Below, piece by piece: positions 28,848 through 41,300 of a stretch of 43,433 bases of DNA. The number at the start of each line of letters is the position of its first letter. Within the stretch, counting starts at the first letter, position 1. A program made the translations under genes and the position numbers. The DNA comes from a virus. Location of the stretch: positions 1 through 43,433 of IMG/VR virus record IMGVR_UViG_3300033981_000223; one strand, given 5' to 3'. The notes under the pieces were generated by a model. It did no database searches, had not been told where the DNA came from, and saw only the letters and a list, made by a program, of their open reading frames with translations.

Positions 28848-29095
28848 TGCTTGTTAAATTAGCAACTAAGTTTTGGAAAATTTTTGTGAAATATTTTTTG
28901 TTTAGGCGAAAGAAATGTTAGATAGAAGGCTGTGACATGACGGGTGGGCTGTGTCATGGGGATGATTGAAAGGGGGGTTTGGATCAGTAATTTGGATTTG
29001 GTGGTGTCGTTTGTGCGTATCCGAGAGTATGGGCGCGCGATGGTACCTGCACGCATTCTGGGGGGTGGCGGTACGGTGGGGTCGCGGGCGGAAAC

Positions 29096-29125
29096 TTTAC
29101 ATATGGGGGATATGTCGGCTATAAG
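29096..29125 (+). promoter_or_regulatory. Candidate early promoter 1
   Basis: TTTACA (29096-29101), an 18-base spacer and TATAAG (29120-29125) lie about 50 bases before the first rightward gene. The bases around the -10, TGTCGGCTATAAGATAAT, closely match two later promoters at 30068-30096 and 30947-30976. The shared extended sequence supports a real promoter family. Confidence 0.65.
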
Positions 29126-29982: not shown

Positions 29983-30073
29983 GTTTGAAACCAGTTATGT
30001 GTCGTCGCGCGTGGGTCAGGGCGCGGGCGCAAGCGCGCACGCCAACGGTTCAGCCTATCCTGAAACGTTGATT
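29983..30073 (+). repeat. Intergenic repeat module, copy A
   Basis: The module begins GTTTGAAACCAGTTATGTGT, then a GC-rich stretch of alternating GCGCG (about 30005-30040), then the dyad GGTTCAG-N6-CTGAAAC (30047-30066), then TTGATT of the next promoter. Copies B (30861-30952) and C (31725-31800) have the same order. All three directly follow a terminator. Copies A and B each lead into a promoter. Confidence 0.85.
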
Positions 30074-30860: not shown

Positions 30861-30952
30861 GTTTGAAACCAGTTATTTGTCCTCGCGCGCGTGCCAGAGC
30901 GCGTGTGCGTCATGCGCTAATTAACGATTCACCCATGCCTGAAACATTGATT
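30861..30952 (+). repeat. Intergenic repeat module, copy B
   Basis: GTTTGAAACCAGTTATTTGT opens the module, followed by alternating GCGCG, then ATTCA-N8-TGAAAC within 30923-30945, then TTGATT. The first 29 bases match copy A at all but two positions. It links the terminator of paralogue 1 to the promoter of paralogue 2. Confidence 0.85.
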
Positions 30953-31724: not shown

Positions 31725-31800
31725 GTTTTTGAAACCAGTTCTTTGTCCTCGCGCGTGCGCGGGCAAGCGCGTTAAATAAGAGTTCAGCTATGCCTGACTC
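31725..31800 (+). repeat. Intergenic repeat module, copy C (promoter lost)
   Basis: GTTTTTGAAACCAGTTCTTT opens the third copy, followed by alternating GCGCG and GTTCAG-N5-CCTGACTC (31781-31800 region). Where copies A and B continue into TTGATT and a -10, this copy runs into GTTAAATTAAC and no good promoter. No gene follows for over 600 bases, so it may be a relic of a third gene copy or a functional DNA site. Confidence 0.75.
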
Positions 31801-32313
31801 GTTAAATTAACTTTTACACCATGTTGATGGAAAAGGCTCGTTCGGCGGAAATTATTGTGAGTTGCATCATTTACCGTTTGCTTAAATGACGCTGAGTTGC
31901 CTTGTTCCGATAGCTTGTTCCAAAAAAGCCGGAACAAACAGGGTCAGGCAGAACAAGAAAAGCTAGGATTTATGCGGGTTTTCAGCGTTTGTTCCAATGT
32001 TCCGGTGTTTTTGGGGTAGGGGGAGGGAAACGCACGATTTTTTACGGATCGGTCGAGTCCTGTGGCAAGTGCAAAATTCACTCCGAAGGAAGCGTACTCA
32101 TATTTTTTCTAGAACAGAACAACTATATATAGTTTATGTTAAAAAATAAAATAAGAAATACAAACACTTACGCGTACTTTTTCTGTTCTGGCAACCATTT
32201 TCCTCAGAACACCCTCACGGAATAATGCGGGTTTTCAGCCCTTTTTTCGTTCCAAAACTCATCTCACCAGCCCAAAATCAGAACAAACCCCTGCCTAAAA
32301 AAGTCACCCAAAC
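31801..32313. other. Gene-free region with GTTCC repeats; candidate origin or regulatory site
   Basis: No credible gene was seen here. The region holds repeated CTTGTTCC (31901-31908 and 31914-31921), an inverted pair TTGTTCC (31915-31921) / GGAACAA (31931-31937) and further GTTCC at 31991 and 31999. ATGCGGGTTTTCAGC is duplicated at 31972-31986 and 32225-32239. The palindrome AACTATATATAGTT (32121-32134) lies in a strongly AT-rich stretch (32100-32170). Iteron-like repeats next to AT-rich DNA fit a replication origin or a multi-site regulator (inference). Confidence 0.5.
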
Positions 32314-32345
32314 AACTTGACTTATATGTTAAGTTATGCTATAAT
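32314..32345 (+). promoter_or_regulatory. Near-consensus promoter with overlapping palindrome (operator candidate 1)
   Basis: TTGACT (32317-32322), 17 bases and TATAAT (32340-32345) make a nearly perfect sigma70-type promoter. AACTTGAC (32314-32321) and GTTAAGTT (32328-32335) form an inverted repeat (7 of 8 positions) covering the -35 and part of the spacer. A second copy of the whole arrangement lies at 34937-34967. A repressor binding here would block RNA polymerase (inference). Confidence 0.8.
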
Positions 32346-32400
32346 TATACTGTTGGAGAGCAATGTAGCTAGATAGCATCCAACACCAGCATTTTTATTT

Positions 32401-32423
32401 AACAGTTCAGGGTCACCTGACTC
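32401..32423 (+). promoter_or_regulatory. Leader dyad TTCAGG...CCTGA
   Basis: In the leader of the promoter at 32317, AACAGTTCAGG, GTCA and CCTGACTC form a small hairpin, 23 bases before the ATG of the next gene. The same element lies in the leader of the promoter at 34939 (35005-35027). There is no T-run, so a regulatory RNA or protein site is more likely than a terminator. Confidence 0.6.
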
Positions 32424-32445
32424 ACTATTTACGAAAGGGTTCACC

Positions 32446-32643
32446 ATGTTTGATTTAGTCGATGAGATGGAGTGGGAAGACGTTGCGCGGGAGCGTGGCC
32501 TAATAGTTTCTCTGGAGGAAGCAGGGTTCGAAGAATACGTAGAAGAGCCGCTGCATGGGCAGTACTTCAGCAACGAGGGCAGTATCTACAGTTACACAGA
32601 CTGGTTCTACGACGGTGACGATCAAGCGTTCAGCGTGATCTGA
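32446..32643 (+). CDS. Small acidic protein, unknown function
   Basis: This 65-residue protein starts MFDLVDEMEWEDVARERGLI and is rich in Glu, Asp, Tyr and Trp (SIYSYTDWFYDGDDQAFSVI). CGAAAGGG lies about 8 bases before the ATG. Small, very acidic early phage proteins sometimes mimic DNA to block host proteins; that is only a possibility here. It is the first gene behind the promoter at 32317. Confidence 0.75.
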   Translation: MFDLVDEMEWEDVARERGLIVSLEEAGFEEYVEEPLHGQYFSNEGSIYSYTDWFYDGDDQAFSVI

Positions 32644-32676
32644 ACTGTTATTTAATTAATCGAAAGGAGCAACATC

Positions 32677-32877
32677 ATGGGACGTATCAAACAACTAATG
32701 ATCGAGATGCAAGAATGGCGCGAGAATATGCCTGACCTGATGGGTCAAGCGTTGGCAGATGCCGAGCAGGAGTTTCTAGCCACAGTAACCGAAGCCGACG
32801 ACATGCCGCTGTGGATTCAGCTGGAGTTAGACCTGTGGGAGAACATGCAGGGGTTGGGTGGAGACTGTGACCTATGA
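32677..32877 (+). CDS. Small acidic helical protein, unknown function
   Basis: This 66-residue protein starts MGRIKQLMIEMQEWRENMPD and has LADAEQEFLATVTEADDMPL. CGAAAGGAG lies about 8 bases before the ATG. Its stop overlaps the next start as ATGA, so the genes are coupled. No family is recognised. Confidence 0.75.
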   Translation: MGRIKQLMIEMQEWRENMPDLMGQALADAEQEFLATVTEADDMPLWIQLELDLWENMQGLGGDCDL

Positions 32878-33389
32878 GCATAAAACTTCTCAAGGCACAC
32901 GTTGCCTTTTACACATCGACTGCTGAGGTGGACAACCGTATCCTGAAGTACTACACCGAGGAGGACAAACAGTCTCAGGTGGCACGAGCCAGAGGCGAGT
33001 TTGCTGTTCTCAAGGGGTGGTGGGAAAAGCAGGGGTTCAACACGTCATACGGCGGGTGGTGTGACGTGATGGAGCCGCGTGGGATTATCGTGGGTGGAAC
33101 ATTTCATACATCACACGACTACGAGCAGTTAAACGCGTTGATCCATGACTACAAGGAGACGTTCCTGCCTGACTACGACGATGACAGCGTGTGGTGGGGC
33201 GAGGGTGACGAGCCGACCGAGGGCTATGCGCTAGAACATGTCTGGGTGAAGTTCAACGTGTACAGGACTATCGAAGACAGCGACGTGGTACGTCTGGGCG
33301 CATATCGGCGGTACTTGGACTTGAACATCGACGTGGCTATATCGAACAACTTCTATGCGAAGGGAGGGGAAGATGGGCTACCGTTCTGA
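32874..33389 (+). CDS. Unknown protein, 171 aa
   Basis: This protein starts MSIKLLKAHVAFYTSTAEVD and contains ILKYYTEEDKQSQVARARGE and TFLPDYDDDSVWWGEGDEPT. It is acidic and aromatic-rich, with no membrane segment. It overlaps the previous gene by four bases and the next by 17, within a tightly packed operon. No family is recognised. Confidence 0.75.
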   Translation: MSIKLLKAHVAFYTSTAEVDNRILKYYTEEDKQSQVARARGEFAVLKGWWEKQGFNTSYGGWCDVMEPRGIIVGGTFHTSHDYEQLNALIHDYKETFLPDYDDDSVWWGEGDEPTEGYALEHVWVKFNVYRTIEDSDVVRLGAYRRYLDLNIDVAISNNFYAKGGEDGLPF

Positions 33390-33741
33390 CGTGACGTGCA
33401 TCATGTACACCAGCAAACCCGATGACAAGGGCGCGGGCGCAATCATGACTACGTGGCTAAAGCAACACATACACGACGATGAGATAGATTACTTTGAGTT
33501 CCATGATACCGAGGTGGTGTTTACTGCGGAGCAATGGAAGTGGTATCCAGACTATCCATCCATACGTCGGCTAGAGAAACTCTTTACTGACTTTCAGGAG
33601 ACGTTCTGCGCGGAGCATCACGACAGCAAGTACGGCTACGAGTTTATGCGTGTGGGCGAGAGTTACGACGATGTGGAGCATTACGAGGCAGGGTTATGCG
33701 GCGGCAGACTCAGACTCAGTCGAAGCATACACATTGATTAA
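33373..33741 (+). CDS. Small protein with MGYRSDV start, unknown function
   Basis: This 122-residue protein starts MGYRSDVTCIMYTSKPDDKG and has DYFEFHDTEVVFTAEQWKWY and MRVGESYDDVEHY. The MGYRSDV opening and the later aromatic/acidic pattern are familiar from hypothetical phage and bacterial proteins. ATG 33373 is preferred over 33355 because GGGAGGGG lies directly upstream. The function is not known to me. Confidence 0.78.
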   Translation: MGYRSDVTCIMYTSKPDDKGAGAIMTTWLKQHIHDDEIDYFEFHDTEVVFTAEQWKWYPDYPSIRRLEKLFTDFQETFCAEHHDSKYGYEFMRVGESYDDVEHYEAGLCGGRLRLSRSIHID

Positions 33742-33760
33742 CAGTTCAGGGAGGGGTGAC

Positions 33761-33973
33761 ATGGAAGATTACGTTCCAGAGTGCATGTTGTGCGGGGCGG
33801 AGTACGCCCTAGCTAGGTGGGCTATCGGGGCAAAGACTTGTAAACCATGCGGAGAGCAAGCGGCACGGGGGATCAAGCGCACCATCGCACCGATGCACAA
33901 GAGCAATTACGTGTTGGTCACAGACTTGGCTGACTTGAAGGGGTTGAACAACAAGGGAGGGCTGGTGAAATGA
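33761..33973 (+). CDS. Zinc-ribbon small protein
   Basis: This 70-residue protein has C8-x2-C11 and C27-x2-C30 (ECMLCGAEYALARW, KTCKPCGEQ), followed by IAPMHKSNYVLVTDLADLKG. The CxxC pair plus APMHKSNYVLVT pattern is common in phages of aquatic bacteria as far as I recall. ATG 33761 follows GGGAGGGG, which lies within a TTCAGG dyad-like element (33740-33763). The frame is open upstream, but the extension overlaps the previous gene and lacks a ribosome site. It probably binds zinc; the role is unknown. Confidence 0.8.
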   Translation: MEDYVPECMLCGAEYALARWAIGAKTCKPCGEQAARGIKRTIAPMHKSNYVLVTDLADLKGLNNKGGLVK

Positions 33974-34137
33974 AACTAGAAGCTATTCAACTACGCAATG
34001 GCGAGTGGTGTGTTCGCCCACAAGGGCAACTAGGTACGTGCGGCTGGCATCCGAAGGCATGGACAGCGGCGTTCGTACGCGCAGCGTCGGCTGATGCAGC
34101 CGTGAGGAAAGTAACTCTTCAGGGAGGGCTGAAATGA
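33970..34137 (+). CDS. Short protein (55 aa), unknown function
   Basis: The frame runs from ATG 33970 (overlapping the previous stop as ATGA) to TGA 34135-34137. It encodes MKLEAIQLRNGEWCVRPQGQ and continues WHPKAWTAAFVRAASADAAV. A GGGAGGGC sequence upstream and couplings at both ends support it as a gene. The composition is balanced. No family is recognised. Confidence 0.7.
   Translation: MKLEAIQLRNGEWCVRPQGQLGTCGWHPKAWTAAFVRAASADAAVRKVTLQGGLK
34113..34136 (+). promoter_or_regulatory. Hairpin with ribosome site in its loop
   Basis: TTCAG (34118-34122) and CTGAA (34129-34133) form a short stem with GGAGGG between them, directly before the ATG of the 42-aa gene. The ribosome site is thus presented in a hairpin loop. 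The element matches the TTCAGG family found at promoters and leaders in this arm. Confidence 0.5.
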
Positions 34138-34262
34138 AACGATATAAGAAAGTAATACGCGATGCCAAGCGCGTTCTCCGGGGAATAGACCATGACCGTC
34201 AGGCGAGAGAATTCTGGCTGGCGTTGATCGTCAAGACCAAAGGGAGGATGGGATGGATATAA
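34134..34262 (+). CDS. Short basic protein (42 aa), unknown function
   Basis: The frame from ATG 34134 to TAA 34260-34262 encodes MKRYKKVIRDAKRVLRGIDH and continues DRQAREFWLALIVKTKG. It is coupled to the previous gene by ATGA overlap and overlaps the next start by 10 bases. The ribosome site GGAGGG lies directly upstream. Strongly basic; nucleic acid binding is possible but unproven. Confidence 0.65.
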   Translation: MKRYKKVIRDAKRVLRGIDHDRQAREFWLALIVKTKGRMGWI

Positions 34263-34603
34263 GACCTTACGACGTGGTGATCAAGCATGAGCCTACGTCT
34301 GTACAGAAACTTTACCGCTTCCCCAACGGGGCTGGTGCGTCTGTTGTCAGGGGTGAGTTTACCTACGGAGGCGACGAGGGTCTGTGGGAGCTAGGCGTTA
34401 TCCGGTTCGAGGGGGAGGGGGGTAACTACGTACTTATCTACCCGAAAGATGTCTGTTCAGAGGGTGACGTGATCGGCTGGCTGACCGACGAGCAGGTGGA
34501 GGAGAAGCTGGTGCAGATAGCCAACTTGACTGCGGATCAGGTAGCCGAGGGGGATACTGGAAGCGAAGCAACCACTTTTAAAGAAACGCATGGAGAACTA
34601 TGA
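34253..34603 (+). CDS. Small beta-rich acidic protein, unknown function
   Basis: This 116-residue protein begins MDIRPYDVVIKHEPTSVQKL and has beta-type segments (GASVVRGEFTYGGDEGLWEL and GVIRFEGEGGNYVLIYPKDV) and a helical acidic end. GGGAGG lies just upstream of the ATG. It is part of the operon of small early genes. No family is recognised. Confidence 0.73.
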   Translation: MDIRPYDVVIKHEPTSVQKLYRFPNGAGASVVRGEFTYGGDEGLWELGVIRFEGEGGNYVLIYPKDVCSEGDVIGWLTDEQVEEKLVQIANLTADQVAEGDTGSEATTFKETHGEL

Positions 34604-34604
34604 G

Positions 34605-34820
34605 ATGGATAACTTCTACGAGATAGCAACGATAGTACTTGGCTGTGTGGTAGTAGCACAACACGTCAGTAAAAAGATTTTTAGGCATAAGATTATGTAC
34701 ATGCTCGACCGCATAGCGCGTAGGGATTGGGCTATTGAGCTGACCGAAAGTGGCTATGCGGTGCTGGATGAGGATGGCGACAAAATCTTTAGCGTCAGGG
34801 GAGGCAAGCGCCGTGGGTAA
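34605..34820 (+). CDS. Small membrane protein, unknown function
   Basis: This 71-residue protein starts MDNFYEIATIVLGCVVVAQH, giving one probable membrane segment (residues 5-20). A basic region (SKKIFRHKIMYMLDRIARRD) and an acidic C-terminal part follow. I chose ATG 34605 because GGAG lies about 9 bases upstream; ATG 34590 in the same frame is possible. The role is unknown. Confidence 0.65.
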   Translation: MDNFYEIATIVLGCVVVAQHVSKKIFRHKIMYMLDRIARRDWAIELTESGYAVLDEDGDKIFSVRGGKRRG

Positions 34821-34920
34821 CTGGCTTCTGCTTGCTCTGGCGGCTGCGCCAGCTGCGCTTACGTGCTTGGGTGGTTGGGTTGCCTACACGTATCCGCAGT
34901 TATGGTTCTGGGTCATCTAA
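34813..34920 (+). CDS. Short hydrophobic peptide (35 aa)
   Basis: GTG 34813 to TAA 34918-34920 encodes 35 residues, beginning MGNWLLLALAAAPAALTCLG and ending YTYPQLWFWVI. It overlaps the end of the previous gene by eight bases, with GGGGAGG about 6 bases upstream. Nearly the whole peptide is hydrophobic, so it would insert in the membrane. It is the last gene before the second promoter. Confidence 0.5.
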   Translation: MGNWLLLALAAAPAALTCLGGWVAYTYPQLWFWVI

Positions 34921-34936
34921 AAAACACGAGTAAACT

Positions 34937-34967
34937 ACTTGACTAATATGTCAAGTTATAGTATAAT
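34937..34967 (+). promoter_or_regulatory. Near-consensus promoter with perfect palindrome (operator candidate 2)
   Basis: TTGACT (34939-34944), 17 bases and TATAAT (34962-34967) match the promoter at 32317. ACTTGAC (34937-34943) and GTCAAGT (34950-34956) form a perfect 7-bp inverted repeat over the -35 and spacer. The two promoters also share AAGTTAT before the -10 and TATAATTATA at it. It drives the DUF3150/AAA+/VWA cassette. Confidence 0.85.
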
Positions 34968-35004: not shown

Positions 35005-35027
35005 AACGGTTCAGGGTCACCTGAATC
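35005..35027 (+). promoter_or_regulatory. Leader dyad TTCAGG...CCTGAA
   Basis: In the leader of the promoter at 34939, AACGGTTCAGG, GTCA and CCTGAATC form a perfect 6-bp stem (TTCAGG/CCTGAA), 28 bases before the ATG. The element matches the one at 32401-32423 and the terminator at 40709-40742. Placement in two equivalent leaders suggests a shared post-transcriptional or DNA-level control (inference). Confidence 0.65.
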
Positions 35028-35055: not shown

Positions 35056-35961
35056 ATGGAACTCAATAAACCACAGCACATCACGTCACTCGCAACCAGC
35101 GGCCTTCTGGTCGCAGTCGAGGTCAACGTCTGGTCAGCTACCAAGCAAGACCGAGCCATCAGCAATGAGGTTACTACCGCAAAGAAAGCCGATACGAATG
35201 CAGGCAGGTTCGTTAAAAACTTGCTGGCGAACAACGTCGACCACAAGGCGTTGCTGAACTATCGTCAGACGATCTACAACTGGATACAGCGTTCGACCTA
35301 TCCGTGGAACAAGTCGCAGGACTATCTGCCGTACGTAGCGTTGCCCAAGTTCATGCAGGAGTTTGACTGGCACGAGATTGAGTTCACGCGTCTTTTAGAC
35401 AACTTCTGTAACAACTACAACACAACGGTGTCGAACATGGCGTTCGCGCAGGGCGATATGTTTAACCGCGATGACTACCCGACGGTGGATCAGGTGCGTA
35501 ACAAGTTCGGGGTCACGCTGTACACCAGCGAGGTTCCGGTGGGCGACTATCGGTGCGCGATAGCGCAGGACTTGGCTAATGACTTGAATACACATTACAG
35601 TCGCCAAGCGGAAACAATAGTTCAGGGCATCCTGAACGATCAGGTAGAGAGGTTGGTTGATGTCATGGAGTCACTCGCGCATTGCTGCGGGTACGATGAG
35701 ACAACAACGACCGATGGCGAGACCAAGCAGAAGAAGCGCAAGATATACGAGGGTACGGTGGACAAGGCGAAAGAGTATTGTCGTCTCTTCAAAGACTTCA
35801 ACCTGACTAACGATTCAGCGTTGGATGAAGCAGTAACTAGGCTTGACCTAGCGTTGCGCGGCGTTGATGCAGAAGCGTTGCGTGATTCAGATGCAGTACG
35901 GTCACAAGTAAAAGACGAGATGGATGACATCCTGTCGAAGTTTGCACCACGTAGTATCTAA
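35056..35961 (+). CDS. DUF3150-like protein
   Basis: This 301-residue protein starts MELNKPQHITSLATSGLLVA and continues VEVNVWSATKQDRAISNEV. It contains RQTIYNWIQRSTYPWNKSQD, FMQEFDWHEIEFTRLLDNF and FNRDDYPTVDQVRNKFGVTL. The layout (GLLV-V-W-A-KQD, T-PW, DYP...V..KFG) matches the DUF3150 family as I recall it, which in phages lies beside a MoxR-like ATPase and a VWA protein, as here. CGAAAGGAAAC lies directly before the start. One TTCAGG dyad lies inside the coding region (35620-35637). Its biochemical role is unknown. Confidence 0.82.
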   Translation: MELNKPQHITSLATSGLLVAVEVNVWSATKQDRAISNEVTTAKKADTNAGRFVKNLLANNVDHKALLNYRQTIYNWIQRSTYPWNKSQDYLPYVALPKFMQEFDWHEIEFTRLLDNFCNNYNTTVSNMAFAQGDMFNRDDYPTVDQVRNKFGVTLYTSEVPVGDYRCAIAQDLANDLNTHYSRQAETIVQGILNDQVERLVDVMESLAHCCGYDETTTTDGETKQKKRKIYEGTVDKAKEYCRLFKDFNLTNDSALDEAVTRLDLALRGVDAEALRDSDAVRSQVKDEMDDILSKFAPRSI

Positions 35962-37129: not shown

Positions 37130-37152
37130 AACAGTTCAGGAAAGGGTGAACC
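37130..37152 (+). promoter_or_regulatory. Hairpin around the ribosome site of the VWA gene
   Basis: GTTCA (37133-37137) and TGAAC (37147-37151) form a stem with GGAAAGGG in the loop, two bases before the ATG at 37154. The surrounding AACAGTTCAGG matches the dyad family. The ribosome site in a loop could be opened or masked by a binding protein (inference). Confidence 0.55.
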
Positions 37153-37153
37153 G

Positions 37154-38401
37154 ATGATTAGCATCACACCAGAAGAGAGGATGAAAAAGAATCATATCGC
37201 ATTGATGCGACATCCAGAGACGGCGTTGTACTCAGGCGTGATCATGGCAGGTGAATCTCATGTATCAGACGAGATGTTTACTGCGTACACCGATGGGCTC
37301 AACAAGAAGTATTCAGCCAAGTTCATTGAGAAGCTGAGTGACGAAGAACTACGCGGGTTGATTCTGCATGAGAATTTACATGTAGCGTTGATGCACATTC
37401 CTCGACACAAGGATTTGATGGATGAGAACCGCTTGCTGGCTAACGTGGCAATGGACATCGTGGTCAACAACATCATCAACAGACTGAATGACAAGAAGCT
37501 ATGCAAGCTACCGGAGGGGGGCATCTTTGATCCTCACTACGATGGCTGGTCTGTGCGTGAGATATACAACGATCTCAAGAAGCAGAACCCACCACCGCCG
37601 GACAGTAGCGGACAAAGCCGGACACAGCCGGACGGTAGCGGACAATCTAACGGTTCAGGGAAGGGTGAAGTCGTAGTTAACGGTAAGACACATTCAACCG
37701 AAGGCTCCGACGAACATGACGCACAAGGTACGGAGGGTAAGACACCGGAAGAGATGAAAGAGTTAGAAGAGAAGATCGGCAAAGCGTTGCGCGAGGGCGG
37801 GATGCTTGCTGGTCGGCTTGGAACTAAGATGCCGCGAGAGCTAGAGGAGTCTCTGGTATCCCCTGTCGATTGGCGTAAGGAGTTGCAGGATTACGTCAAG
37901 ACATCGGTACGTGGCGCAGATGAACTAACGTGGCGTAGGTTCAATCGCAGTTTGCTTGCCAATGACATTCTTGCGCCAAGCGTTGAGTCTGAGACCATCA
38001 CAGAAGTGCTGTTCGCTGTGGATACTTCAGGCTCGATAGGTGACGCAGATTTGGCTGCGGTAGCAGTACAGATTGCTGCTGCGTGTGAGACTTGTAGGCC
38101 AGAGAAGGTACGTGTGCTGTGGTGGGATACGCATGTGCATGGGGAGCAAGTGTTTACTGATGACTACGACAACATCCGAAAGCTACTTAAGCCACAAGGC
38201 GGCGGTGGTACACGGGCTTCCTGTGTATCGGAGTACATCATCAAGAACAAACTCACACCAGACTGCGCGGTGATACTGACTGACGGTTACCTTGAGGACA
38301 ACATCCAATGGGCGGCGACAGTCGATACGCTGTGGCTTGTGAAAGGCAACAGCCGCTTTGTACCACCAAGCGGTAAGAAACTAATCATCGAAGGGGAATA
38401 A
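37154..38401 (+). CDS. Metallopeptidase-like / VWA (CobT-like) protein
   Basis: These 415 residues combine two parts. The N-terminal half has HENLHVALMH at 72-81, an HExxH zinc-binding pattern typical of putative metallopeptidases of the DUF2201 type. A disordered Pro/Gly/Ser linker follows (about 145-200). The C-terminal VWA-like domain has the MIDAS motif DTSGS at 290-294. Such proteins pair with MoxR-like ATPases, as with the gene just upstream. ATG 37154 follows AAGGG at good spacing; the open frame extends a further 10 codons to a TTG. Whether the peptidase is active is unknown. Confidence 0.88.
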   Translation: MISITPEERMKKNHIALMRHPETALYSGVIMAGESHVSDEMFTAYTDGLNKKYSAKFIEKLSDEELRGLILHENLHVALMHIPRHKDLMDENRLLANVAMDIVVNNIINRLNDKKLCKLPEGGIFDPHYDGWSVREIYNDLKKQNPPPPDSSGQSRTQPDGSGQSNGSGKGEVVVNGKTHSTEGSDEHDAQGTEGKTPEEMKELEEKIGKALREGGMLAGRLGTKMPRELEESLVSPVDWRKELQDYVKTSVRGADELTWRRFNRSLLANDILAPSVESETITEVLFAVDTSGSIGDADLAAVAVQIAAACETCRPEKVRVLWWDTHVHGEQVFTDDYDNIRKLLKPQGGGGTRASCVSEYIIKNKLTPDCAVILTDGYLEDNIQWAATVDTLWLVKGNSRFVPPSGKKLIIEGE

Positions 38402-38402
38402 C

Positions 38403-39356
38403 ATGATCCATCCAATTATGAGTTCACGTATAGCTGAATCGCAAATCATCATGACGAAAGCATACCCGCTGGTTCGTGAGATTGTTCATAAGTACAAGCT
38501 GCATGTGATAGGGATAAAACAATCCAACTGGTCTGTAGACGACGAGAACAACTGTTTCTACATAGCAAACAACGAGGGCATGGTATTGGGTATTGCTGGT
38601 TTTAATCGTGATGGGCAATACACTTTCCGCACAGTAATTACACCGAAGGAGCGCGGGCGTACGACAGAGGACAGGATGACCTATGCTGCCGCGAAAGTGT
38701 CTGTACTGATGCGTAACATAGAAAAGTATCACCTGTTGCCCAATGATTCGTTAGAGGTGTTTGTCAAACTTAATCACTTTTACGATCTAGTTAATATCGT
38801 GTTGGCAAAACAAAAGAATGTGGGTAAACATAATCCTCTGAACGGCGAGTCTCTGCATCGTTTGTTGAAGGTAGCTTTTGGCTATCAGCCTTTGGAGAAT
38901 CTATCGTTAGAATCAATGGAGAAATTTAAGAAAATTCTTGACGATTACGATAAGGTCGATAAGACTAGAGAGGAAAAACTAAATATAGTCAAAGAAGTGT
39001 TTGACAAACCAGTAAAGTTTCTCATGTACGACAGCACAGATACGTTCCTCAAAGGTGAGATAAACATTGGCATCAAACTTGATGAGGACTATCGTGTAGA
39101 CGATGCTAGACCTGTAGCAGTCAAGTGTGAGCGCGTTGATAGATTCATGGATGACCCAGACTTCGCCTCTCGCTTGGCTATGTACAAAGTACTTGGACAA
39201 AAGGATGACCCAGACATGAGGTTCGTTGGCGAGGAGCAGTTCTTTCCGTTAGGCCGTGATAGTTACAACGAGGAGTTAGGTCTCTACAGAGTAGATACTG
39301 ACGGATGGCGTCATGATTTCTTTCCGGCCAAGCCTAGATGGTTGTTCCTTGTATGA
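38403..39356 (+). CDS. Unknown protein following the VWA gene, 317 aa
   Basis: This protein starts MIHPIMSSRIAESQIIMTKA. It has a mixed alpha/beta core (YFRT-like segments such as GQYTFRTVITPKERGRTTED) and a Lys-rich helical middle (LESMEKFKKILDDYDKVDKT). It follows the VWA gene by one base and overlaps the next start by four. Constant linkage to the cassette would suggest a substrate or adaptor for it (inference). No domain is recognised. Confidence 0.78.
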   Translation: MIHPIMSSRIAESQIIMTKAYPLVREIVHKYKLHVIGIKQSNWSVDDENNCFYIANNEGMVLGIAGFNRDGQYTFRTVITPKERGRTTEDRMTYAAAKVSVLMRNIEKYHLLPNDSLEVFVKLNHFYDLVNIVLAKQKNVGKHNPLNGESLHRLLKVAFGYQPLENLSLESMEKFKKILDDYDKVDKTREEKLNIVKEVFDKPVKFLMYDSTDTFLKGEINIGIKLDEDYRVDDARPVAVKCERVDRFMDDPDFASRLAMYKVLGQKDDPDMRFVGEEQFFPLGRDSYNEELGLYRVDTDGWRHDFFPAKPRWLFLV

Positions 39357-39724
39357 TGTACTTATCGCCGCTTACAGCTAATGTAGAGGACGAGAGTCAG
39401 AAGTATTATCGCGTTCCTATTTATCAGGAAGGGGATATACATACCGTGTTCGTTGGAGATAATTTTGTACGAAAGTTTACGTCGGACACGTTGCCTGACT
39501 TTCTTGCGCTGAAGCTGTCGATGATTAAGGCTTCAGCCAAACCTGAACTGTTAATTGACGATACGTTGACTGAGCATGATAACCCATCGTTTGCAATCAT
39601 GTTGTATTCAATGCTTCCGTTCGAAGGGTTTGAGACTATCGGCTGGCAATTATCCAAGCGATACATGGTGGTAATTTTGACGGAAACACAACTGGAAGAG
39701 TTAAAAGGTGACACCCGAAGCTAA
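39353..39724 (+). CDS. Unknown protein, 123 aa
   Basis: This protein starts MMYLSPLTANVEDESQKYYR and has DTLPDFLALKLSMIKASAKP and FETIGWQLSKRYMVVILTET. I chose ATG 39353 because it overlaps the upstream stop as ATGA; the frame extends to 39338 without support. It overlaps the nuclease gene by 17 bases. No family is recognised. Confidence 0.72.
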   Translation: MMYLSPLTANVEDESQKYYRVPIYQEGDIHTVFVGDNFVRKFTSDTLPDFLALKLSMIKASAKPELLIDDTLTEHDNPSFAIMLYSMLPFEGFETIGWQLSKRYMVVILTETQLEELKGDTRS

Positions 39725-40192: not shown

Positions 40193-40699
40193 ATGGCTAA
40201 AAGAACTGACGCAAAGCGTATTCGCGCATACATGAAGAAGCACCCAAACGCGATACCAAAAGATATTGCAACAGCTTTGGGCGTTAACATCGCTAATGTG
40301 TATTACGTGCGAAAGACGTTGAAGGATAAGGTAGTCGATCTAATCGCAGCGGGTTCGCCGTTGGCGAAGTATGTAGTACAGCCGAATCCGAGGTTGATCC
40401 CATCCTCATCAGTGGATACTACACCACGTTACAAGACGCGTATGCGGGGTTCGGGAGACGTGCCGCAAGTTACGCACTACGAGTTTTGTAATTCGAATGT
40501 GGACTTTGTTAACAACCCACCGCACTACACCACAGGAGGGATTGAGACGATTGACTTCATCGAGGCCAAGCAGCTCAACTATAACTTGGGCAACGTGGTG
40601 AAGTACATTACACGAGCCGACCACAAAGGTAATCGCGTAGAAGACCTACGTAAAGCGAAGTGGTACTTGGAGCGTGAGATTCTCGCGCAACACATTTAA
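40193..40699 (+). CDS. HTH plus DUF3310 fusion protein
   Basis: This 168-residue protein has an N-terminal helix-turn-helix candidate (AYMKKHPNAIPKDIATALGV followed by NIANVYYVRKTLKD, residues 12-44). A linker of about 60 residues follows. The C-terminal DUF3310 pattern is NPPHYTTGGIETIDFIEAKQ, YNLGNVVKYITRADHKGN and EDLRKAKWYLEREI. DUF3310 proteins include T7 gp1.7-like nucleotide kinases (family knowledge); catalysis here is unproven. ATG 40193 is chosen because GAGGGAAAC lies upstream and the HTH starts there. A terminator follows at 40709. Confidence 0.85.
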   Translation: MAKRTDAKRIRAYMKKHPNAIPKDIATALGVNIANVYYVRKTLKDKVVDLIAAGSPLAKYVVQPNPRLIPSSSVDTTPRYKTRMRGSGDVPQVTHYEFCNSNVDFVNNPPHYTTGGIETIDFIEAKQLNYNLGNVVKYITRADHKGNRVEDLRKAKWYLEREILAQHI

Positions 40700-40708
40700 C
40701 TTTTATAT

Positions 40709-40742
40709 AGCGGTTCAGGGTGACCTGAATCGCTATTTTTTT
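40709..40742 (+). terminator. Rho-independent terminator built on the TTCAGG dyad
   Basis: AGCGGTTCAGG (40709-40719) pairs with CCTGAATCGCT (40724-40734) around GTGA, followed by seven T. The stem is the same TTCAGG/CCTGAA dyad seen in leaders at 32401 and 35005, with an extra AGCG/CGCT base that closes it. It ends the cassette operon. Confidence 0.9.
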
Positions 40743-40763
40743 GTCTATTCAAGGTGCTTAATT

Positions 40764-41036
40764 ATGTTTTGCCAATGCGGTGATAAAAGATCATGTGTCG
40801 TCAATACAATAAAAACAGAAAAGGGGATACGAAGACAGCGCCGTTGTACAGGTTGCAAAGAAAGTTTTTATACGATGGAAGAACTCTATTTGAAACCAGT
40901 GACTGAAAAGATAAAGCCAGATGCGCGTGGGCTGTACACCAAACCCGATGTAGCAAAGATCAACAAAACAAAAGTTGAGATACGGCGTCGCATAGAAGAT
41001 CGCGTACCGAGTTATTTTATCGAGGACGACTATTGA
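40764..41036 (+). CDS. NrdR-like zinc-ribbon protein
   Basis: This 90-residue protein starts MFCQCGDKRSCVVNTIKTEK and continues GIRRQRRCTGCKESFYTMEE. C3, C5, C28 and C31 plus the segment IRRQRRC resemble the zinc ribbon of NrdR regulators, which bind DNA ahead of ribonucleotide reductase genes. The rest of NrdR (ATP-cone) is absent, so this is likely a small regulator or structural zinc protein (inference). ATG 40764 has AAGG about 10 bases upstream; the longer frame to 40674 overlaps the terminator and is rejected. Confidence 0.8.
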   Translation: MFCQCGDKRSCVVNTIKTEKGIRRQRRCTGCKESFYTMEELYLKPVTEKIKPDARGLYTKPDVAKINKTKVEIRRRIEDRVPSYFIEDDY

Positions 41037-41081: not shown

Positions 41082-41300
41082 GTGCGCGAAGATTTGATCA
41101 GGATGGCACACGAGGCAGGATTTCAGTTTCACAGATACGAGGGCAACGTAAAAGAATCGGTCAACAGTTTGGAGGCGCTTGCGCGTCTTATCACTTCAGC
41201 AGACCGTGAAGCGATAGCTACGTTGGTTGAACAGATGGGCATAGAGGGCTATGGCACGTTGGCGATAGCCGCAGCGATAAGGGAGAGAGGTGCGCCATGA
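41082..41300 (+). CDS. Small helical protein, tandem copy 1
   Basis: This 72-residue protein starts with GTG at 41082 and has SVNSLEALARLITSADREAI and ends AIAAAIRERGAP. The next gene ends in the same AIRERGAP after a related helix, so the two are tandem paralogues. GGGAG lies about 8 bases upstream. The AxxREA...AIRERG pattern is common in phages with unknown function. Confidence 0.78.
   Translation: MREDLIRMAHEAGFQFHRYEGNVKESVNSLEALARLITSADREAIATLVEQMGIEGYGTLAIAAAIRERGAP

Follow-up and report, generated by a model that had tools for sequence, protein, structure and literature searches.

Phages lambda and P22 have a few operators, placed at two promoters, and in phi29 two proteins reshape the DNA and no dispersed palindromes are known. 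The phi29 proteins in question, p4 and p6, are early phage proteins that shut off the early host-polymerase promoter pair A2c/A2b of this lytic phage (PMC3100819). Mycobacteriophage L5 and its cluster A relatives carry repressor-type sites genome-wide, some at promoters and most elsewhere; the site motif diverges among related phages along with the DNA-binding protein, and early lytic genes are silenced (PMC9283540, PMC6550527). The L5 sites are asymmetric 13-mers, aligned with transcription and bound by a 183-residue monomer, in temperate phages (PMC9283540, PMC6550527). Here we describe a putative control system in a 43,433-nt fragment of an uncultivated water phage (IMG/VR record IMGVR_UViG_3300033981_000223; this whole stretch is referred to as the window), in which two near-consensus promoters, P1 and P2, each carry an asymmetric 14-bp element between the -35 and the -10 and a symmetric palindrome in the leader, the latter being one of a set dispersed across a putative early block. 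We suggest that this system may work like a cluster A stoperator circuit, without claiming membership of that group.

The window contains 14 exact copies of the dispersed palindrome, TTCA-N8-TGAA, where 0.5 would be expected, and eight bases is the sole spacing that is enriched. With one arm mismatch allowed, 16 palindromes fall within the 11.7-kb early block and 2 within the other 31.7 kb, a confinement equally found in relatives; symmetric extra bases (TA at both ends) lengthen the site to ~28 bp. Both leaders contain a copy, TTCAGGGTCACCTGAC at 32406-32421, 60 nt after the -10 of P1, and TTCAGGGTCACCTGAA at 35010-35025, 42 nt after the -10 of P2 (palindromes are given without strand). The first-pass annotation had mentioned in passing a TTCAGG dyad in the two leaders, which is indeed present (GTTCAGGGTCACCTGA at 32405 and 35009), and had missed its 14-copy enrichment. 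Two copies (30049-30064 and 30928-30943) lie 3 nt upstream of a -35-like TTGATT that belongs to the first and second, respectively, of two genes for proteins of about 215 amino acids (aa); one at 31783-31798 has a changed arm base, and another at 32629-32644 sits at the end of the first gene after P1. Each of the copies at 33745-33760 (one changed arm base) and 34118-34133 encloses a ribosome-binding site and is followed by an ATG. Further downstream, palindromes lie within the 301-aa gene (35621-35636 and 35814-35829), at the start of and within the VWA gene (37135-37150 and 37654-37669), within a 317-aa gene (38423-38438), a 128-aa gene (39532-39547) and a small gene (41195-41210), and at 40714-40729, where the copy doubles as the stem of a terminator-like hairpin (40707-40736) followed by a T run.

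Relatives were collected by scanning IMG/VR with the ATPase, the 301-aa protein and a 301-aa alignment, which gave more than 100 loci, or ~80 once overlaps were removed; a near-identical 65-kb contig supplied further genome beyond the window. Described phages are distant: the window terminase is at most 53% identical to that of Phage DSL-LC04 and 47-51% identical to those of Pelagibacter phages, the ATPase is ~24% identical to those of N4-like phages, and the promoter region has no DNA match to any described phage in a search of a phage collection and zero matches in Rfam. No dispersed palindrome of the TTCA-N8-TGAA type was found in DSL-LC04, the closest terminase relative. Among the IMG/VR relatives, the palindrome arms read TTCAC, TCCAC/TTCCA, CCACG, TCGAC, TGACA, CTAGA or GTCTA, each at a fixed spacing and in 4-16 early-block copies. 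The arm letters thus differ by clade, yet the symmetry is retained and sites within one genome share the same letters. Across genomes with four or more exact copies, the palindrome of the genome itself is found in 44 of 44 P1/P2 leaders (40 of 40 after dropping two contigs that had been entered twice), 42-80 nt (once 131) after the -10 and with 0-1 of 10 positions mismatched. Some arm classes have few exact copies, no more than the maximum count of low-complexity arms in shuffled sequence, and not every class is secure. Three loci (L007, L009 and L012) whose 301-aa protein is 90-94% identical to that of the window are without the TTCA palindrome; they may use TCCTA or CTAGC arms, an uncertain assignment given low copy numbers. 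Sites, placement, conservation and symmetry are direct observations, and together they point to a fast-evolving repressor system.

The palindromes could alternatively be RNA hairpins that act on translation or RNA processing. The copies at 33745 and 34118, which enclose a ribosome-binding site directly 5' of an ATG, would suit such a role, as would the terminator-like stem at 40714 and the P2 leader hairpin, which folds at -12 kcal/mol. Hairpins alone, however, would not need arm letters that are uniform within a genome, and the palindromes of the 215-aa genes precede the likely -35, which places them outside the transcript. Single-mismatch sites furthermore comprise 25 G-U-forming and 23 A-C-forming transitions, so that changes compatible with G-U pairing are not in excess and no RNA-pairing bias is seen, a pattern that fits DNA sites rather than RNA. 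Because the deviations lack this bias, we read the leader and dispersed palindromes as operator-like DNA sites, and consider it unlikely that they are RNA hairpins instead.

The promoters themselves were located correctly by the first-pass annotation. P1 (32317-32345, + strand) has a TTGACT -35, a 17-base spacer and an extended -10, TGCTATAAT, and P2 (34939-34967, + strand) has a TTGACT -35, a 17-base spacer and a TATAAT -10; at both, the sigma-70-type hexamers are near consensus, the spacing is within the 16-18 range, and these are the sole sites with 11/12 consensus bases in 26-43 kb. The P1 operon begins with a gene for a 65-aa protein (32446-32643, + strand), and the P2 operon with the gene for the 301-aa protein (35056-35961, + strand), after which come an AAA ATPase and the VWA protein. 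P1 has a counterpart in relatives, most of which also have one for P2, preceding the 301-aa gene. When the pattern TATATGTMAAGTTRTRNTATAMT was searched with up to three mismatches, 17 of 21 long contigs (two of the 17 being near-identical to the window) contained exactly two matches, on one strand and 0.9-2.8 kb apart, three contained one, and G011 contained none; a reversed-pattern control was empty in the 21 contigs. The sites sit in a 75-nt stretch with 76% identity between the two copies, which suggests that the P1 and P2 stretches descend from one duplication. Relatives retain both promoters together with the elements common to the two, which makes shared control of the two operons very likely. 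This much of the earlier proposal of a single repressor for both operons stands; its other part, a dimeric repressor at a palindrome over the -35, is not supported.

That palindrome is real in the window. The two promoters share the inverted repeat ACTTGAC-N6-GTYAAGT, present over the P1 -35 as AACTTGAC-N6-GTTAAGTT (32314-32335, one mismatched pair) and over the P2 -35 as ACTTGAC-N6-GTCAAGT (34937-34956), with the same spacing and position as had been annotated, and a search of the window found no third place with fewer than three mismatches. Equal spacing and position at two promoters would favour a dimeric repressor, but the two repeats are not independent observations because both lie within the duplicated 75-nt stretch. 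Comparison was based on a profile of 71 non-redundant P1/P2 sites, first gathered by pattern, which inflates part of the profile and was controlled by a rerun using hexamers only. In these sites the arms have 3.93 matched pairs of 7, against 3.93±0.06 in shuffled arms, the 5-bp palindrome core is intact in just 18 of the 71, and the bases that complete the left arm (-32 and -31) hold ~0.25 bit each. Relatives keep the promoter and the right arm, whereas the left arm is free to change (to TTGTAT, TTGATC, TATGTT or TAGGTG, for example) and the arms do not covary; the annotation had itself named loss of the palindrome from phages that keep the promoters as grounds for giving the model up. On this comparison the -35 palindrome arises in this phage from the asymmetric element and an additional copy in inverted orientation, the latter not being generally kept. 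Two inverted copies would allow a dimer to bind in this phage and its near-identical contigs, but as an account of how P1 and P2 are controlled the model is very unlikely.

What is conserved is only the right half, as the asymmetric element TATATGTMAAGTTA between the -35 and the -10. Information in the 71 sites is concentrated in the -35 (TTG), in spacer positions A-28, G-24, T-23, A-21, A-20, G-19, T-18 and T-17, and further in TG at -15/-14 and the -10; the spacer carries as much information as the -10, and its signal persists in P2 sites chosen by hexamers alone. On the - strand the element reads TAACTTAACATATA at P1 (32323-32336; position weight matrix (PWM) score 18.5) and TAACTTGACATATT at P2 (34945-34958; 21.9). 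The inverted copies lie on the + strand, over the P1 -35 at 32313-32326 (20.9; this is the left half of the palindrome, lost in most relatives) and over the P2 -35 at 34935-34948 (13.4). Reversed, the element reads TAACTTKACATATA, the form in which it covers the -35 of further early promoters; 111 such copies occur across 40 loci, compared with a median of 3 when motifs are shuffled. By a loose criterion, ~45 of the reversed copies outside P1/P2 cover a -35 that has a suitably spaced -10-like hexamer; most of them belong to promoters of the 215-aa genes or the first early gene. The case in the window is a likely third early promoter, in which AAACTTTACATATG (29092-29105, + strand; PWM score 15.4) covers a TTTACA -35 followed by TATAAG at 29120-29125; relatives are alike. 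At P1 of three loci (L083, L104 and L111), a second asymmetric element occurs 20 bp upstream in the same orientation, forming a tandem direct repeat. In L071, L085, L096 and L104, 15-mer copies lacking a -10 precede the 'MSQYV' gene; we considered these as operators and rejected them, because a single open frame (DYMSSYN...) can be read through them.

The spacer signal might reflect nothing beyond a polymerase optimum, comprising an extended -10, spacer shape and an UP-like A tract. P1 and P2 do resemble sigma-70 extended -10 promoters in their TTGACT/TATAAT hexamers, 17-base spacer and, in most sites, a TGn 5' of the -10, and they conserve both the TG at -15/-14 and an A-rich block from -55 to -50, features that strong host-type promoters share. 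They differ in the conserved 14-bp spacer element, which ordinary sigma-70 promoters are not known to have. An optimum of this kind is difficult to reconcile with conservation of G-24, T-23, A-21, A-20 and G-19 as strong as that of the -10, with the same 13-mer reversed over the -35 of other promoters, or with the decay of the element in lineages that keep the promoter and lack the 215-aa protein, and we regard it as improbable. The long, unbroken conservation from -29 to -7 could also be taken as a contiguous 23-bp motif read by a phage-encoded single-subunit RNA polymerase. This is exceedingly unlikely given the near-consensus sigma-70 hexamers; the T7-like polymerase profile PF00940 had no match in 21 contigs, and since its control was equally silent, absence of such an enzyme is not demonstrated. 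To judge from their sequence, P1 and P2 are probably the two main early promoters, read by a host sigma-70-type RNA polymerase.

A protein that binds the dispersed palindrome should be present wherever palindromes occur and should differ where they differ. By this measure the likeliest binder is HTH103, a conserved 103-aa putative Cro-like helix-turn-helix (HTH) protein whose gene lies outside the window and adjoins replication genes; we prefer it because it passes where the HTH-DUF3310 protein and the 215-aa protein fail. A search of 30 contigs found HTH103 in 26 and missed it in the shorter ones, and all nine full contigs have it. Its recognition helix tracks palindrome class (partial r 0.33, label-shuffle p<0.0005, not tree-corrected), with, for example, SRATVHN-WFRG-AILRG accompanying TTCAG and TRMTVFS-WFRG-KPIR accompanying TCCAC. 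Members of the family match PHROG repressor families with E down to ~1e-5, and the predicted structure is all-helical with one predicted HTH (predicted local distance difference test (pLDDT) score 83.5), its best PDB neighbours including P22 c2, lambda cI, KorA and DdrO, all weak (E 0.3-1). HTH103, the 215-aa protein and the 301-aa protein are each without a match in the phage collection. The HTH-DUF3310 protein, to which the first-pass annotation had pointed as a possible regulator, lacks its HTH part in G010, G011 and G016, all of which have the dispersed palindrome; the 215-aa protein is absent from G011, L089 and L099, which carry dispersed palindromes as well. As binders of the asymmetric element, HTH-DUF3310 was rejected since G010 and G016 keep the spacer element without the HTH part, and so was HTH103, whose R-x-T helix motif changes in all element-poor lineages, a change explained equally by the other palindrome arms there. 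Another possible DNA-binding protein is an NrdR-like zinc-ribbon protein encoded at 40674-41036 (Pfam PF22811, below cut-off).

The likeliest candidates for the asymmetric element, as binder or partner, are the 215-aa orphan proteins ('MAKK'), encoded by paired paralogous genes upstream of P1 and P2 (30152-30811 and 31032-31679, both + strand). Relatives with strong element sites have the protein, whereas L067, L089, L099, L103 and G011 lack it, and in these five the element is weak or gone. This co-loss is observed, but because it amounts to just two changes on the 301-aa protein tree, the association is suggestive only. The orphan is predicted with confidence to be all-helical (pLDDT 90.8), its model matches nothing in PDB or BFVD, and the family has no sequence relatives. 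A conserved non-coding block, TTTGAWACCAGTTATNTGTCGTCGCGCG, lies between a terminator and the promoter of a 215-aa gene, at ~29985-30030 and ~30865-30910 in the window and likewise in nearly all relatives.

One explanation that would accommodate these observations is that host sigma-70-type RNA polymerase reads P1 and P2, each of which carries two phage-specific control sites: the asymmetric element TATATGTMAAGTTA between the -35 and the -10, here in both orientations, and a symmetric operator (TTCA-N8-TGAA) ~45-80 bp into the transcript, one of ~16 across the early block. HTH103 would bind the dispersed palindromes and, as it accumulates, block initiation and elongation over the early block, thereby switching transcription from early to later genes, while a separate factor, most likely involving the 215-aa orphan proteins, would bind the asymmetric element. 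Binding, the identities of the binders, repression and timing are what we infer from the sites, and the labels 'early' and 'repressor' are provisional ones drawn from gene order and analogy. We consider this model as a whole moderately probable.

Several points weigh against it. The correlation between helix and palindrome class ignores the tree, and the TRMT helix is paired with TTCA-type arms in G005 as well as with TCCAC arms; HTH103 scores below the Pfam HTH_3 cut-off (17.7 vs 23 bits), and even its best PDB match has an E of 0.3. Between P1 and P2 (33761-33973) lies the gene for a 70-aa zinc-finger protein containing the motif IAPMHKSNY; this protein, kept in all eight other full contigs, is as widespread as HTH103 and is an alternative candidate binder. 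Some loci yielded no clear palindrome class, the leader test covered genomes with at least four exact copies, and palindromes inside coding sequence may have other causes. The link between orphan protein and asymmetric element rests on about two lineages, and the orphan model shows no known DNA-binding fold.

Compared with described systems, the locus shares with lambda CI/Cro and P22 c2, which are HTH_3 proteins, symmetric operators and perhaps, to judge by weak structural matches of the candidate repressor, a Cro-like fold, and it differs in having ~16 sites over an 11-kb block and an operator downstream of the presumed transcription start. With phi29 p4/p6 it would share paired early host-polymerase promoters turned off by early phage proteins, although there is no sequence relation between the two phages. 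The likeness to cluster A stoperators lies in the many dispersed sites, mostly outside promoters, and in fast motif change; the ~16 early-block sites are fewer than in L5, cluster A phages being characterised by 20-30 copies of one site. We nevertheless set the system apart from cluster A because of the symmetry of the site, the size of the candidate protein and the lack of a detectable tyrosine integrase. The site here is a palindrome with clade-specific arms that also occurs in genes and at ribosome-binding sites, whereas that of L5 is asymmetric, and the candidate is a 103-aa protein with one predicted HTH, as against a repressor of ~183 aa with two DNA-binding domains. No tyrosine integrase (PF00589) was found in 8 contigs, which may be incomplete, while the control matched in 14; serine integrases and partition genes were not searched.

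More tentatively, it is quite possible that these apparently lytic aquatic phages control the whole early block by a symmetric dispersed operator, the arms at all 10-16 sites and the Cro-like helix changing together between lineages; such a circuit would resemble stoperators yet occur in phages other than the temperate mycobacteriophages, with selection for diversified specificity. Most descriptions of dispersed repressor sites that stop elongation come from cluster A, and there the rapid divergence of the motif is linked to the superinfection immunity of lysogens. If the proposal is true, a symmetric version with concerted arm change would exist in a large family of uncultivated phages in which no tyrosine integrase was detected, raising the question of why a lytic-looking phage diversifies its repressor specificity, for which exclusion of co-infecting relatives is one possibility; the family would then also offer many natural protein-operator pairs for the study of how a recognition code evolves.

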